Part shown: in pieces, positions 23,733 to 64,000 of the stretch
Layout: the number at the start of each line of letters is the position of its first letter
Numbering within the stretch: the first letter of the stretch is position 1
DNA from: Isoptericola halotolerans
Lineage (GTDB): Bacteria > Actinomycetota > Actinomycetes > Actinomycetales > Cellulomonadaceae
Reading direction: 5' to 3'
DNA length: 64,000 bases
Assembly: GCF_003003075.1 (NCBI RefSeq)
Contig: NZ_PVTX01000003.1
Coordinates: forward strand, 124,001 to 188,000
Program-made: the position numbers and the translations under genes
Notes under the pieces: model-generated
Databases searched by the model: none
Told to the model about the DNA's origin: nothing
Seen by the model: only the letters and a program-made list of their open reading frames with translations

Positions 23733-24472
23733 CGAGCCCTCGCACGGTCGCGGTCGTCCCCCTGCGGGACGGCGTCTCCGGCAAGTCGCGGCTGGCGGCC
23801 GCCCTGGACCCGGGTGCCCGACGGCGGCTGGTCGTCGCGCTCGCCCGGCACGTCGGGGAGGTCCTCGCCTCGCTGGTGGCGGACGGCGGGCTGGCGGGTG
23901 TCGTGGTCGTGACGGCGGACGTGCCGTTCGTCGAGGAGGTGCTGCCCGGTCTGATCGGCAACTCGTCACCTGATCGGCAGTCCGGACTGCCGATCAGGTC
24001 ACGAGTTGCCGAGGTGATTCCGGAGCCGCCCGACCGGCCCGGCCTGAACGGTGCCCTCGACCACGCCCGCGAGCACGTCCGGGTGCACGCTCGTGAGCAC
24101 GGCGCGTACCGCGGGGCGGACCGGGTGCTGGTGGTGCACGCGGACCTGCCGCGGCTCACGGCCGCCGACGTGCACGCCCTCCTCACGACCGAGGCGGACG
24201 TGGCCGTCGCGACCGACCGGCACGGCACCGGCACCAACCTGTTGTCCGTGCCGCTGGAGGTGCCGGGCGCCGACGGCTTCCCCTTCCGGTTCGGTCCCGG
24301 GTCCCGGGCCGCCCACGAGGGGGAGGCCGCCGCGCACGGCCTGACCTCCGCCGTCGTGCAACGCCCCGGCACGGCCGCCGACCTGGACACGATCGACGAC
24401 TGGGCCGAGCTCCCGGGCGAGATCCGTGCCCGGGTGGGTGCCGCCGTCGGGCACCCGCTGACCGCGCGGTAG
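23729..24472 (+). CDS. cofC: 2-phospho-L-lactate/PEP guanylyltransferase (F420 biosynthesis), with palindrome insertion
   Basis: CofC/FbiD activates phospholactate or phosphoenolpyruvate with GTP for the CofD step. The start is GTG 23729, overlapping the cofD stop (GTGA), giving 247 residues. Family motifs are VAVVPLRDGVSGKSRL, VVVTADVPFVEEVL, GLNGALDHA, VLVVHADLPRL and GTGTNLLSVPL. About 18 residues (IGNSSPDRQSGLPIRSR) between VLPGL and VAEVIPEPPD are encoded by a 58-bp palindrome and look like an in-frame insertion in a surface loop. The flanking family sequence is intact, so the enzyme may still work. Confidence 0.9.
   Translation: MTSPRTVAVVPLRDGVSGKSRLAAALDPGARRRLVVALARHVGEVLASLVADGGLAGVVVVTADVPFVEEVLPGLIGNSSPDRQSGLPIRSRVAEVIPEPPDRPGLNGALDHAREHVRVHAREHGAYRGADRVLVVHADLPRLTAADVHALLTTEADVAVATDRHGTGTNLLSVPLEVPGADGFPFRFGPGSRAAHEGEAAAHGLTSAVVQRPGTAADLDTIDDWAELPGEIRARVGAAVGHPLTAR
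23955..24012. repeat. 58-bp near-perfect palindrome inside cofC
   Basis: The left arm 23955-23983 and right arm 23984-24012 are complements over 29 bp with a single mismatch (C at 23967 against C at 24000) and no loop. The 10-mer CTGATCGGCA occurs both at 23951 and at 23970. It is read in frame as part of cofC. No target-site duplication can be defined with certainty. Confidence 0.9.
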
Positions 24473-38823: not shown

Positions 38824-38867
38824 GCACGACGCCCCCTCCCGACGGGCCGCGGGAGGGGGCGTCGTGC
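38824..38867. terminator. bidirectional terminator between wall protein and chitinase genes
   Basis: A perfect 17-bp stem (GCACGACGCCCCCTCCC at 38824-38840 with 38851-38867) with a 10-base loop in the convergent gap. It is the strongest simple terminator in the window. Confidence 0.85.
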
Positions 38868-59866: not shown

Positions 59867-60068
59867 CTCGGCAGCGTATCGGCCACCTCCGACACCGACC
59901 GCGGTGCCCTGACAGGAACCGCGGCGGCCGCTCGTTCGTTCGCCGGGGAGCCACCCGAGACCGACCCTTCCAGGCACGATGCCCCTGCGTGAGGCACACT
60001 GAGACCTGGAACACATTTCGAGACAGCACCGTCCCGCGCGGACGACATCTGAGAACGTGAGGATTCCT

Positions 60069-60746
60069 GTGGACGACACCGTCGTGCTCTCCGCCCCCCT
60101 CTTCGCGGACATGGACAGCGAAGAGTCGAAGGCACTCTTCGAGTCGATGATCCCCGTCGAGCTGACCCGCGGAGACGTCCTGTTCCGCGAGGGAGAGCCG
60201 GGCGATCGTTTGTACGTGATCGCGCAGGGCAAGATCAAGCTCGGTCGCCGCTCCAGCGACGGCCGCGAGAACCTGCTCTCGATCCTCGGACCGGGCGAGA
60301 TGTTCGGCGAGCTGTCGCTGTTCGACCCCGGCCCCCGCACCGCCACGGCCTCGTCCGTCTCCGACGCCCTCTGCTACGAGCTGCGCCACCAGGCCCTCGT
60401 CCAGTGGATCGCCGCGCACCCCAACGTCGCCACGACGCTGCTCGGCGCCCTGGCCCGCCGGCTGCGTCGCACGAACGAGACCCTCGCCGACCTCGTCTTC
60501 TCCGACGTGCCCGGCCGCGTCGCCAAGGCGCTGCTCGACCTGTCCAACCGGTTCGGCGAGCCCAACGACGAGGGCGTCCGCGTCGCCCACGACCTCACGC
60601 AGGAGGAGCTCGCCCAGCTCGTCGGCGCCTCCCGCGAGACCGTCAACAAGGCGCTGGCCGACTTCGCGACCCGCGGCTGGGTCCGGCGCGAGGGCCGCGC
60701 CGTCGTCCTGCTGGACCTGGACCGCCTGGAGCGAAGGGCTCGCTGA
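60069..60746 (+). CDS. crp: CRP/FNR-family cyclic-nucleotide-type regulator
   Basis: A 225-residue global regulator, close to the actinobacterial Crp/GlxR group. The cyclic-nucleotide-binding domain has [20 protein letters not shown] and the phosphate cassette [16 protein letters not shown]. The helix-turn-helix is [24 protein letters not shown] 60069 (VDDTVVLS) is preferred over GTG 60057 since GAGGA lies six bases before it and related proteins begin with a similar DDT segment. It is divergent from nth, as in many actinobacteria. Two large hairpins follow the gene. Confidence 0.92.
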
Positions 60747-60770
60747 GCCTCCCTCGTCTGGCTCGCTCAC

Positions 60771-60868
60771 GCGGGGATGACGGAGCCCTCTGCACGGTCG
60801 CGTTCACGGGCGCTGCGCGCCCTCCACTTCGGGATCGACGACCGTGCAGAGGGCTTCGTCATCCCCGC
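60771..60868. repeat. hairpin element A (30-bp stem, structured loop)
   Basis: The left arm GCGGGGATGACGGAGCCCTC... (60771-60800) pairs with 60839-60868 at 29 of 30 positions. The 38-base loop reads CGTTCACG, a mini-hairpin (GGGCGC-TGC-GCGCCC), then TCCACTTCGGGA. The same loop framework recurs in element B in reverse orientation. Confidence 0.9.
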
Positions 60869-60915
60869 TTCGTTCCTCGGCCTGCGGTGAGCACAGCGCA
60901 AGGCGGGACGACCAA

Positions 60916-61018
60916 GCGGACGGTGGCGCGATCCGTCGCGCGGTCGTCTCTTTCCCGAAGTGGAGCGCCCCCTGGGGCGCGTGAACGCGACCGCGCGACG
61001 GATCGCGCCACCGTCCGC
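60916..61018. repeat. hairpin element B (31-bp perfect stem, same loop inverted)
   Basis: The left arm 60916-60946 (GCGGACGGTGGCGCGATCCG...) is a perfect 31-bp complement of 60988-61018. The loop (60947-60987) contains TCCCGAAGTGGAGCGC and GCGCGTGAACG, the reverse complement of the loop of element A, again around a mini-hairpin (GCGCCCC-CT-GGGGCGC). The stem is different from that of A except for the innermost CGGTCG/CGACCG. Confidence 0.9.
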
Positions 61019-61033
61019 GTCAGTATCTTGGCG

Positions 61034-61501
61034 TCAGGCAGTGAGCTCAGCAATCAGCTCGACCTCGACCGGGGCGTCCAGCGGGAGGACCGCGACGCCG
61101 ACGGCGGAGCGCGCGTGCGTGCCGGCGTCGCCGAAGATCTCACCGAGCACCGTGCTGGCACCGTTGAGGACGGCGGGCTGACCGGTGAACGACGGGTCGC
61201 TCGCGACGAACCCGGTCACCTTGACGATGCGGACACCGTCGAGCGAGCCGACGACGGAGCGCACCGCAGCGAGCGCGTTGAGCGCGCAGGTGCGGGCCAG
61301 GTCCGTGGCCGTGGCGGCGTCGACGAGACCGTCGCCCTCGCCGACCTTCCCCGTGACGGGCAGCTCGCCGCTCACGAACGGGAGCTGCCCGGCCGTGTAG
61401 ACGTAGCGCCCCGAGCGGACCGCCGGCTGGTACGCCGCGACCGGTGCTGCGACGTCGGGCAGGGTGATGCCCAGCTCGGCGAGGCGGCTGTCGATGCTCA
61501 T
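61034..61501 (-). CDS. RidA/YjgF-family protein
   Basis: A 155-residue protein of the larger RidA subfamily (YjgH-like). Members often deaminate reactive imines or enamines, though this subgroup is less studied. Motifs: RLAELGITLPDVAAPVAAYQ, RYVYTAGQLPFVSGELP and the C-terminal LPLDAPVEVELIAEL. The Arg normally used for catalysis in archetypal RidA is not evident at the expected place. The start is taken as ATG 61501; GTG 61513 would overlap the preceding stop codon (GTGA) and is a real alternative. Confidence 0.87.
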   Translation of the reverse strand: MSIDSRLAELGITLPDVAAPVAAYQPAVRSGRYVYTAGQLPFVSGELPVTGKVGEGDGLVDAATATDLARTCALNALAAVRSVVGSLDGVRIVKVTGFVASDPSFTGQPAVLNGASTVLGEIFGDAGTHARSAVGVAVLPLDAPVEVELIAELTA

Positions 61502-61509
61502 ACCCGCGC

Positions 61510-61671
61510 TCACGCGCCGGAGGGTCTCTTGAGGTAGGCGACCAGCCCGGTGCCGTCCGGGCCGGGCACGACCTGCACGAGCTCCCAGCCGTCCGCACCC
61601 CACTGGTCCAGGATCGCCTTGGTGTTGTGGATGAGGAGGGGGATGGTCGCGTATTCCCACGTGGTAGCCAT
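61510..61671 (-). CDS. DUF4177-type small protein
   Basis: A 53-residue protein, MATTWEYATIPLLIHNTKAI then LDQWGADGWELVQVV. The pattern of an N-terminal strand (WEYATIPL) followed by LDQWGADGWELV matches DUF4177, small alpha/beta proteins of unknown function. ATG 61671 has TACCAT (61683-61678) exactly six bases upstream, so a leaderless start is likely. It is cotranscribed with the RidA gene. Confidence 0.85.
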   Translation of the reverse strand: MATTWEYATIPLLIHNTKAILDQWGADGWELVQVVPGPDGTGLVAYLKRPSGA

Positions 61672-61812
61672 GCGGCGATGGTAGCCCGAGCGGGTGAAGC
61701 CCGACGTCCGGGACCGGCCGTTCTCGGGCCTCGACCACCGCTCCACAGGACCTGCACACGCGCGGCGCGCGGATCGGCTGGCCCCGTCGGAGTGACCCTC
61801 TAGGCTTGGAAC

Positions 61813-64000
61813 ATGGCGAACTCTGAGCCGCGCAGCATGACGCGCACGATCCCCGCGACCCAGATGGTCGCGCTCCTGCTCGCCTTCCTGCTCGCCGCCG
61901 GCGCCGGTGGCGTGCTCGCTGCGGGGTTCGTCATCCCGGCGGTCGCCGGCGCCAACGCCGCCGCCGACAGCACCATCGAGATGTACGACGACGTGCCGGC
62001 CGAGCTCGAGCCGCAGCCGTTGTCGCAGCAGTCGCGCATCTACGCGAGCAACGGCAAGCTGCTGGCCACGTTCTACTACCAGAACCGCATCGTGCTACCG
62101 CTCGAGGAGATCTCCGAGCACATGCAGCATGCGGCCATCGCCATCGAGGACGAGCGCTTCTACGAGCACAACGGCGTGGATCCCAAGGGCATCACCCGCG
62201 CGGCGGTCAACAACCTCAGCGGCTCGGACACGCAGGGCGCGTCGACGATCACGCAGCAGTACGTCAAGAACATGCTCATCGAGGCGGCGCTGCAGGACGG
62301 CGACCCCTTCGCGGTGATCGACGCGCACGAGGACACCCTCAACCGCAAGCTCCGCGAGGCGAAGATGGCCATCGCGCTCGAGAAGAAGATGTCCAAGGAG
62401 GAGATCCTCCAGGGCTACCTCAACGTGGCGCAGTACGGCAAGAACCAGATCTACGGCGTCGAGACTGCCTCCCGCTACTACTTCGACAAGTCCGCGATCG
62501 ACCTGACGCCGGTCGAGGCGGCCACCATCGCCGGTGTGACGAAGGCGCCGAGCCAGTTCGACCCCACGCAGAACCCGGAGAACGCGGAGGAACGCCGCAA
62601 CCTCGTCCTGCAGAACATGTGGAAGCTCGGGTACATCACCACCGAGCAGCGCGAGGAAGCGCAGGAGACGCCGCTCGAGGACACCCTGAAGGTGACGCCG
62701 GTGTCGGCCGGTTGCCAGTCGGCCAACGGATCGGCGTTCTTCTGCGACTACGTGATCAAGGAGATCCTCCTCGACGCGACGTACGGCGAGACGCGGGCCG
62801 ACCGCAACAAGCTGCTCTACCGTGGCGGGCTCGAGATCCACACCACGCTGGACATGAAGATGCAGCGCCAGGCGTACAAGACGATCAAGAGCGCGGTTCC
62901 CGAAGGCGACGAGAGCGGACTCGAGGCGTCCGTCGTCTCGGTCGAGCCTGGCACGGGCAAGATCAAGGCGATGGCCCAGAACGTGCCCTACACGGGGACG
63001 AAGGCCGCCGACAAGGCCTCCCGCGACACGACCGTCAACTACAACGCCGACTACATCCACGGCGCGTCGGGCGGGTTCCAGCCGGGTTCGAACTTCAAGC
63101 CGATCGTGCTCGCGGAGTGGCTGCGCAGTGGACACACACTGAACGACACGGTCAGCGCCAACCACAACACATACACGGTCGGCAACTTCACGTCGCCGTG
63201 CGTGGGTAGCCTCGGTACCGAAACCTGGTCTCCGAGGAACGCCGAAGGTAACACCGCCGGGAACATCTCTGTGCTCCGGGCGACCTACGAGTCGGTCAAC
63301 ACCGCGTACGCATCCATGGGTGCTCAGCTCAATCTCTGCGATCTTCGCAGCACCGCCTTCGACATGGGTTTCCGGCCGACAAGCAAGTCGGGAGTCGGGC
63401 CGCTCAATACGGGCACTGTCAAGAAGACCGACATCGACATCCAGGCTCCGATGGTGCTCGGGACGCAGGAGTCCTCGCCGCTGAACATGGCCTCGACGTA
63501 CGCGACCCTGGCTTCGGGCGGCACGTTCTGCACGCCGGTGGCAATCACCGAGGTGACGGGGCCCGACGGGATGTCGTACGACGTCCCCCAGTCCCAGTGC
63601 GACAAGAATGCGCTGCCCAGCAACATCGCAAACACCATGGTGTACGCCATGGAGAAGGTCTTCACCGACGGTACTGCGCGACGGCTTGGCGGTTTGGCAG
63701 ATGGACGGCCGGTGGCCGGCAAGACGGGTACTTCGCAGGCCGCCGCGCAGACCTGGTTCAGCGGCTTCACTCCGCAGCTCGCCTCGACGGTATGGGTCGG
63801 CTCGGTCGAGAGCCAGACCGAGGACCACACGGGCGGCATGTACGTCAACGGAAACTGGTACGACCCCCTGTATGGCTCGTCGGTCGCCGCTCCGGCGTGG
63901 AAGGAATACATGGACGTGGCCGTCGAGGGCATGCCTGTGCAGGAATTCGGCTCGCCCGACCAGAACCTCATCGGGCAGGCGCCGGCGCCGTACGTCCCGC
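61813..64000 (+). CDS. class A penicillin-binding protein (transglycosylase-transpeptidase), 3' end outside window
   Basis: Bifunctional peptidoglycan synthase (PonA-like). It has a cytoplasmic N-terminus, one membrane helix (MVALLLAFLLAAGAGGVLAA), a GT51 transglycosylase domain with HAAIAIEDERFYEHNGVD and QGASTITQQYVKNML, and a transpeptidase domain with SxxK as SNFK in QPGSNFKPIVL, SxN as SVN in YESVNTAY and KTG in VAGKTGTSQAA. About 729 residues are visible. TAGGCT at 61801-61806 is exactly six bases before ATG 61813, indicating a leaderless mRNA. The base composition falls slightly toward the 3' end. Confidence 0.95.
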   Translation, partial: MANSEPRSMTRTIPATQMVALLLAFLLAAGAGGVLAAGFVIPAVAGANAAADSTIEMYDDVPAELEPQPLSQQSRIYASNGKLLATFYYQNRIVLPLEEISEHMQHAAIAIEDERFYEHNGVDPKGITRAAVNNLSGSDTQGASTITQQYVKNMLIEAALQDGDPFAVIDAHEDTLNRKLREAKMAIALEKKMSKEEILQGYLNVAQYGKNQIYGVETASRYYFDKSAIDLTPVEAATIAGVTKAPSQFDPTQNPENAEERRNLVLQNMWKLGYITTEQREEAQETPLEDTLKVTPVSAGCQSANGSAFFCDYVIKEILLDATYGETRADRNKLLYRGGLEIHTTLDMKMQRQAYKTIKSAVPEGDESGLEASVVSVEPGTGKIKAMAQNVPYTGTKAADKASRDTTVNYNADYIHGASGGFQPGSNFKPIVLAEWLRSGHTLNDTVSANHNTYTVGNFTSPCVGSLGTETWSPRNAEGNTAGNISVLRATYESVNTAYASMGAQLNLCDLRSTAFDMGFRPTSKSGVGPLNTGTVKKTDIDIQAPMVLGTQESSPLNMASTYATLASGGTFCTPVAITEVTGPDGMSYDVPQSQCDKNALPSNIANTMVYAMEKVFTDGTARRLGGLADGRPVAGKTGTSQAAAQTWFSGFTPQLASTVWVGSVESQTEDHTGGMYVNGNWYDPLYGSSVAAPAWKEYMDVAVEGMPVQEFGSPDQNLIGQAPAPYVP

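Follow-up and report, generated by a model that had tools for sequence, protein, structure and literature searches.

Two long hairpins lie in the gap between a pair of convergent genes in the actinobacterium Isoptericola halotolerans, one gene specifying a Crp-like regulator (crp) and the other a RidA-like protein (ridA). What kind of element are these hairpins, and what are they doing behind these two genes? A sequence-only reading of the surrounding DNA (64,000 nucleotides, referred to here as the window) proposed either a selected DNA or RNA structure or a palindromic mobile element. The hairpins stand where that reading placed them: an inverted-repeat search returned the same arms and the same pairing, giving element A at 60771-60868 (+), with arms 97% complementary and 38 nt between them, and element B at 60916-61018 (-), with arms 100% complementary and 41 nt between them. 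The locus is made up as follows.

60057..60746 (+): crp-like regulator gene (ORF, Pfam), with element A at its 3' end in sense
60771..60800 (+): 5' arm of element A, 30 nt, 29/30 paired (inverted-repeat search)
60801..60838 (+): conserved tip of element A, consisting of CGTTCAC, the mini-hairpin, TCCACTTCGGGA and TCGA (sequence, tip pattern, family alignment)
60808..60822 (+): mini-hairpin of element A within the tip, GGGCGC-TGC-GCGCCC, which varies with compensation between copies
60839..60868 (+): 3' arm of element A (inverted-repeat search)
60916..60946 (-): 3' arm of element B (inverted-repeat search)
60947..60987 (-): conserved tip of element B (sequence, tip pattern, family alignment)
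60965..60980 (-): mini-hairpin of element B, GCGCCC-CAGG-GGGCGC (sequence, covariation)
60988..61018 (-): 5' arm of element B, 31 nt, 31/31 paired (inverted-repeat search)
61034..61501 (-): ridA-like (YjgF/L-PSP) gene (ORF, Pfam), with element B at its 3' end in sense

Pfam agrees with the earlier placement between convergent crp and ridA, matching the crp product to cNMP-binding/HTH_Crp proteins and the ridA product to YjgF/L-PSP proteins; 24 nt separate the crp stop codon from the start of A, and 15 nt separate the ridA stop codon from the start of B on the other strand. The loop framework that was said to recur in opposite orientations can be located word by word, with CGTTCACG at 60801-60808 (+) in A and 60980-60987 (-) in B, and CCACTTCGGGA at 60824-60834 (+) in A and 60953-60963 (-) in B; neither word is by itself a rarity in the window, but their combination in a hairpin is. 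The stems had been described as unrelated except for an innermost CGGTCG/CGACCG, and this hexamer is indeed present, although it proved common across the family rather than specific to the pair. Both elements fold with unusual stability (RNA folding z = -12.0 for A and -10.0 for B, with 0/200 equally stable shuffles for each), and a covariance model run over the window returned A and B only (a third row being B on the other strand). Two other inverted structures were observed in the window, a loopless 58-bp palindrome at 23955-24012 (29-nt arms, 97% complementary) and, at 38824-38867, a perfect 18-bp stem with an 8-nt loop, which has the form of an ordinary terminator.

Beyond the window, A and B belong to a real dispersed palindromic family that combines a free stem of about 30 bp with a conserved tip. 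In the genome of origin (3.85 Mb in 22 contigs), a gapped tip pattern gave 10 exact matches and its reversed control 0; across the GTDB family the exact tip was found at 108 places in 33 of 221 genomes and 6 of 25 genera, with all controls at 0, one of these places (in G163) being without a mini-hairpin and looking like chance. We took in 104 of the 108 places, and the 98 of these 104 distinct copies that have stems of at least 18 bp were the ones used in later counts. When 84,980 species genomes were scanned for the exact tip, 76 stretches came up, and six genera (Isoptericola, Promicromonospora, Krasilnikoviella, Myceligenerans, Puerhibacterium and Xylanimonas) account for 68; of the 8 outside these six genera, 7 are stemless and 1, in a rumen Eubacterium metagenome-assembled genome (MAG), has a stem. 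A relaxed tip pattern matched in 188 of 221 family genomes, with controls of the same order, and is therefore mostly background, while in the genus itself it was in excess (19 matches in the genome of origin, 48 in G136 and 51 in G141).

A covariance model with free stems, the search that the sequence-only reading had proposed, likewise recovered many further copies with covarying stems. This model (R1) was built on alignment A1, which holds 60 of the 104 copies and required at least 26/28 pairs paired and arms under about 80% identical, so that its percentage paired is partly by construction. R1 had matches in 18/18 genomes of the genus, where the best 150 candidates per genome were searched and 60 places were taken from the 150 matches listed; at E<=0.01 it counted 17 copies in the genome of origin, 56 in G136 and 55 in G141, both congeners. 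Over the GTDB family it matched in 37 of 220 genomes and 6 of 25 genera, and over the order, under stricter filters and with ten candidates scored per genome, in 8 of 396 genomes, all within two genera of the same family. In alignment A2, two rows that repeated elements already present, read on the other strand, were left out, and a few rows are off register by a base, which inflates its unpaired counts. Every set of copies was collected with a pattern or model and then restricted to those with a stem, so rates of unpaired positions are lower bounds. The element is absent from Rfam 15: the window at 60000-62000 gave 9 matches, all below gathering score, 20 carrier loci gave 0 at gathering score, and the element of locus L043 gave 14 matches, all below; these sub-threshold matches were to miRNA, sRNA and leader models, a result that long hairpins in general may produce. 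The literature searched yielded no description of this palindrome family, which is apparently undescribed and is concentrated in the Promicromonosporaceae.

What identifies the element is its tip, comprising the mini-hairpin and two conserved blocks, while the arms vary yet stay complementary. Elements are mostly about 95-105 bp long with tips of about 38-43 nt, and stem length is held within a narrow range (28-32 bp in 135 of the 168 tip-bearing long hairpins among the loci examined). Both-sided changes were found in 28/28 modelled outer pairs, and the covariation score was 0.853, against 0.174 (sd 0.010) for shuffled and 0.10-0.16 for slid partners. Within the tip, the mini-hairpin occurs in several G-C flipped versions, CGTTCAC..TCCAC becomes CGCTCAC..TCCGC (T:A to C:G) in 6/6 copies having the C, a degraded tip in G137 departing from this covariation, and TCC..CGGG becomes TGC..CGCG (C:G to G:C) in 5 copies, three copies with an extra base having been left out. 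Because these paired changes inside the tip covary, the tip itself is folded, its likely form being a three-way junction that includes a tertiary contact. Likenesses of the tip to a tRNA T-arm, a hammerhead core and an anti-Shine-Dalgarno sequence were considered and dropped.

Copies have a marked relation to the ends of genes. A gene end in the sense of the tip lies no more than 200 nt upstream in 131 of 175 distinct copies (no more than 50 nt in 93; median 31), one of the 131 being an in-gene copy. Sorted by the gene ends nearby, 64 of the 175 have a sense end only, 12 an antisense end only, 67 both (the sense end being nearer in 60) and 32 neither, many of the last being in-gene copies; with a cruder gene caller, 76 exact-tip copies placed between genes had the upstream gene in sense in 59 cases and in antisense in 17. 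Upstream rRNA or tRNA genes were considered as a cause of copies without a sense gene end and were found in none of 20 loci. Where two copies lie within 1 kb, the tips point inward in 15/15 places, each in the sense of its own convergent gene; six of these places are the crp-ridA site in different species and some in G136 and G141 are probably orthologous, leaving about eight to ten that are independent. The genes upstream of copies include crp, ridA, glpK, sdhB, rpoC and those for an FKBP isomerase, ectoine synthase, PurE and a transport permease, glpK and sdhB being names that we presume for FGGY-kinase and iron-sulfur Pfam matches.

What stands at the orthologous ends when the element is missing is informative. 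The glpK end, where the element is carried in two genera, has it in 10 of 17 usable loci of the genus (two with a variant tip), and the remaining 7 have an ordinary hairpin with a stem of 13-28 bp and a loop of 2-10 nt, 4-48 nt past the stop codon. At the crp end a regular expression found the element in 12 of 18 loci; G137 has the degraded tip, G140 and G142 have ordinary hairpins, G143 and G144 have only weak 9-bp hairpins, and G150 (L050) keeps an orthologous stem without the tip, with the apex GGTC-AC-GACC, a candidate for tip loss or for the unoccupied state. The rpoC end, readable with two motifs in 14 of 17 cases, has 3 elements, 9 other hairpins and 2 cases without a good hairpin near the stop codon; a fourth rpoC-end element is in G136. 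Other palindromes were also seen behind rpoC: a second palindromic repeat type, built on GAGGTAG words and forming hairpins of 31-38 bp at several loci, has two of these hairpins there, in G138 (L335) and G134 (L331), and in G142 (L341) there is a 45-bp palindrome with GAGATAGAGA words.

No U-tract follows the stem, although the first base after it is T in 69%. In mycobacteria, I-shaped terminators have been described as hairpins that lack a U-tract and lie no more than 50 bp from the stop codon (PMC12288462), and the present hairpins resemble such actinobacterial terminators in both respects; their position fits, in that 93 of the 131 sense-end copies are within 50 nt and orthologous ends mostly carry other hairpins. 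They differ from the ordinary hairpins at the same ends, which mostly have short loops, in their conserved structured tip, their stem of mostly 28-32 bp and their coding copies. A terminator role for the 3' copies is argued mainly from the fact that other hairpins mostly replace the element at orthologous ends, and on this basis A probably terminates crp transcripts and B ridA transcripts. Several 3' copies are orthologous across species, which counts against taking current mobility as demonstrated.

Other copies lie within proteins. Among the 175 distinct copies, 23 are in frame within genes of six kinds, with the tip in either orientation. By Pfam, run on one representative per kind (the remaining members were placed by eye, on the basis of the same reading frames), the hosts are a glycine dehydrogenase (GDC-P), a DUF3418 protein, a hydrolase/AMP-binding fusion, an RNase-H/AAA protein, a glycosyltransferase and HemD; in the DUF3418 protein, which we take to be HrpA-like, a single Pfam match spans the insert. 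Empty alleles were sought for two of the six kinds, gcvP and the glycosyltransferase, and were found in relatives for both. The aligned region of gcvP is 165 aa in G135, G148, G150, G138 and G149 and 196-222 aa in eight carriers (the motif missed another eight gcvP genes in the genus, which were left out, and a regular-expression positive in G135 is a chance match); carriers typically read RADVxLPEVEGALAPVNASARG with the tip antisense, and the predicted insert peptide in one of them is PEVEGALAPVNAS. The glycosyltransferase region, compared without two orthologues that the motifs missed, is 42 aa in G143, which is empty, and 71-72 aa in carriers. Its tip is sense in G137 and antisense in G144 with nearly the same arms, so that either the tip has flipped over between its arms or one site received two insertions. 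At both hosts the inserts comprise stem and tip together. Since coding copies occur in both orientations and tips at gene ends are mostly sense, polarity appears to matter only for tips that form the untranslated end of an RNA.

The coding copies also bear on how the arms are kept paired. The stems had been read as conserved in structure through compensatory change, and such change is abundant: on both sides of the pair it restores Watson-Crick pairing in 679 of 787 changed pairs among crp orthologues (11 of 18 loci), 149 of 189 among glpK orthologues (8 of 16 loci) and 28 of 30 among rpoC orthologues (3 chosen loci), these counts covering all pairwise comparisons, with related pairs counted more than once. 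Compared with its G134 counterpart, element A has 24 of 28 pairs identical, 3 compensated and 1 otherwise changed. In gcvP copies, too, both-sided changes account for 164 of 206 changed pairs, and non-Watson-Crick positions make up 19 of 598 within genes, against 127 of 3380 at gene ends (3' UTR), counted over the innermost 26 pairs in copies pre-selected for a stem and including related copies. Selection on RNA pairing would make G-U pairs more frequent than A-C mismatches, yet G-U was not favoured (33 G-U vs 50 A-C over the gene and gene-end sets; 14 vs 19 in 54 non-redundant copies). Because stems inside coding genes, which have no need of a terminator, are paired just as well, compensatory change alone is no proof of selection on RNA, a point that the earlier reading did not see, as it did not see the in-frame coding insertions; the simplest account of these counts is that pairing is probably kept by a process at the level of DNA.

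Several observations concern the dispersal of the family. At sites with unrelated flanks, 5' arms can be 96-100% identical over the 26 nt compared, as in L065 and L230 of G136 and in L240 (G136) and L251 (G141); flank identity by gapped alignment was unused in this comparison, as unrelated GC-rich flanks score about 0.7. In the genome of origin, six copies have longer common flanks bounded by GAGGTAG-containing repeats and thus form a composite repeat. The GAGGTAG repeat was also noted at L182:4412 and in the flanks of L001, L002, L006 and L008-L010, while GAGTCAGCGC and its variants recur intergenically in G136 and G141, sometimes in tandem and often beside elements (L055 2300-2480, L233 at about 1630, and flanks of several G136/G141 copies). 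In G136, L066 and L067 have tandem tips about 75-90 bp apart, with a full stem in one only. Neither a mobilising enzyme nor a terminal motif nor a target-site duplication came to light, the enzyme search covering the Y1 transposase (Y1_Tnp, PF01797) in the genomes of the genus, where it was found in 0/18 (a control was positive in 5/14); the linkers at the empty gcvP and glycosyltransferase sites are too diverged to reveal target duplications. No copy was found in phage or plasmid records, the one match being of 31 nt and 90% (E 0.07) in an Embleya plasmid gene, and IMG/VR gave 0 for the exact tip, 0 for the Eubacterium-type tip, and 3 and 54 stretches for relaxed tips, with a paired stem in 0/54.

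By behaviour, the family appears closest to the Rickettsia palindromic elements (RPE), a parallel that draws on descriptions rather than on sequence. RPE are described as long stem-loops of about 100-150 bp, more exactly 105-146 bp, that lie between genes and in frame in conserved genes (PMC2229807, PMC10969869, PMC3767692), and a further case of an in-frame palindromic element is presented in PMC5656822; in these accounts, frequent in-frame insertion of palindromes is described above all for Rickettsia and Wolbachia, and occasionally for other miniature inverted-repeat elements (MITEs). Like RPE and the Wolbachia palindromic elements, the A/B family consists of long palindromic stem-loops, at the lower edge of the size range, which are found in frame within conserved protein genes as well as between genes; unlike them, it resides in a different phylum and has free arms, conservation of the tip only, and a fixed tip polarity behind genes. 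REP sequences and BIMEs, with suspected roles in termination and mRNA stability and with stems given as 5-13 bp and a GTAG or CGTC tag (PMC3733652), are dispersed palindromes too, but the present family occurs in 18 genus genomes without a Y1 transposase. The DNA uptake sequences of Neisseria and Pasteurellaceae are reported as conserved words recurring in terminator hairpins (PMC1852404); those hairpins, as described, are complementary copies of the word, in contrast to a free stem with a conserved apex. Hairpin elements in mitochondria are reported from intergenic DNA, some being proposed as mobile (PMC5910586, PMC2800124), and in the sponge examples as described there the stems are conserved and the loops vary, the reverse of the A/B family. 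Borrelia hairpins are the subject of PMC2674063. Double-hairpin elements are reportedly present in fungal mitochondria as well.

The explanation we favour, and hold with fair though not full confidence, is that A and B are small palindromic mobile DNA whose arms are kept paired at the DNA level and whose copies behind stop codons terminate transcripts. The arms would be kept complementary by hairpin-templated correction during replication or by the element's own copying, and a copy behind a stop codon would act as an intrinsic I-shaped terminator (one without a U-tract) or as an mRNA 3'-end hairpin; because tip polarity follows the gene, the tip at gene ends is presumed to be read as RNA. At the present locus each gene would have its own copy, A ending crp transcripts and B ending ridA transcripts. 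The two alternatives offered by the sequence-only reading would then both apply, given a family that is dispersed and enters genes and whose tip polarity follows the gene. One rival is a structured RNA that is purely functional: a terminator or stability element of the 3' UTR, specific to this clade, with a protein-bound tip, selected as RNA and not mobile. It would account well for the tip polarity, for the same genes carrying the element across species (glpK even in two genera) and for the ordinary hairpins that replace it at orthologous ends, but it is unlikely in view of the in-frame copies (gcvP, the HrpA-like gene, hemD and others), the empty gcvP and glycosyltransferase alleles, the near-identical arms at unrelated sites, and the absence of a G-U preference together with equal pairing within coding genes.

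Three further rivals were weighed. An ordinary MITE, that is, a deletion derivative of an insertion sequence (IS) with terminal inverted repeats that is moved by the IS transposase, would be expected to have the size, palindromy, dispersal and mixture of intergenic and intragenic insertion seen here. In MITE families the terminal repeats are conserved and match a parent IS. In the A/B family the arms are inverted but differ between copies, so that the terminal part is the variable one and the apex alone is conserved, and no target duplication could be shown; we regard this reading as quite unlikely. Insertion of the tip alone into the apex of existing terminator hairpins, with the stems belonging to host terminators, is suggested by the G150 crp hairpin, whose stem is recognisably orthologous without a tip, yet among 191 distinct hairpins of 20 bp or more, drawn from 327 loci that were with few exceptions chosen for the element, 168 carry the tip by regular expression, some of the other 23 are tip variants, and the gcvP and glycosyltransferase inserts bring stem and tip together, all of which makes it very improbable. 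Palindromes of REP type moved by a RAYT/TnpA-REP transposase would match the 3' placement, the palindromy and the many copies; with Y1_Tnp in 0/18 genomes, this is effectively refuted in the genus unless the enzyme falls outside PF01797, the stem is far longer than the 5-13 bp given for REP (PMC3733652), and we give it scarcely any credence. On the favoured reading, mobile palindromic DNA with copies that end transcripts, the A/B family represents RPE-like mobile elements, with a plausible co-opted terminator role for A and B, and the conserved tip probably has a binding partner, as yet putative.

A single case suggests that the class is wider than one family. In the rumen Eubacterium MAG (L123 5012-5104, -), the same tip sits in a long hairpin (z -7.5; R1 52.8 bits, E 1.5e-9 in 91 kb) about 10 nt behind the reading frame of a GTPase, presumably typA-like, and in its sense. 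Misbinning of the MAG is possible, and the low GC of the locus (47% over 8 kb) argues against contamination from Isoptericola; the tip would occur here in a genome of the Bacillota, far outside the actinobacteria. It is a tentative possibility, one we rate below even chances, that these elements constitute a new kind of mobile DNA in which the signal for identity and transfer is carried at the hairpin apex, each arm is renewed or corrected from the other, giving every copy nearly perfect arms of its own, and the tip is invertible and read as DNA, RNA and protein, in a class wider than the family. If so, one element would be read as a DNA palindrome, as an RNA terminator and, in both orientations, as protein.

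For RNA discovery, the covariation in coding copies is a caution, as compensatory change can arise in places that have no use for an RNA hairpin. Actinobacteria that are in culture and combine many copies with empty alleles and covarying arms would allow tests of how such elements move and of how their arms stay complementary, and in these bacteria a mobile element seems to serve as the terminator of core genes (crp, glpK, sdhB and rpoC).
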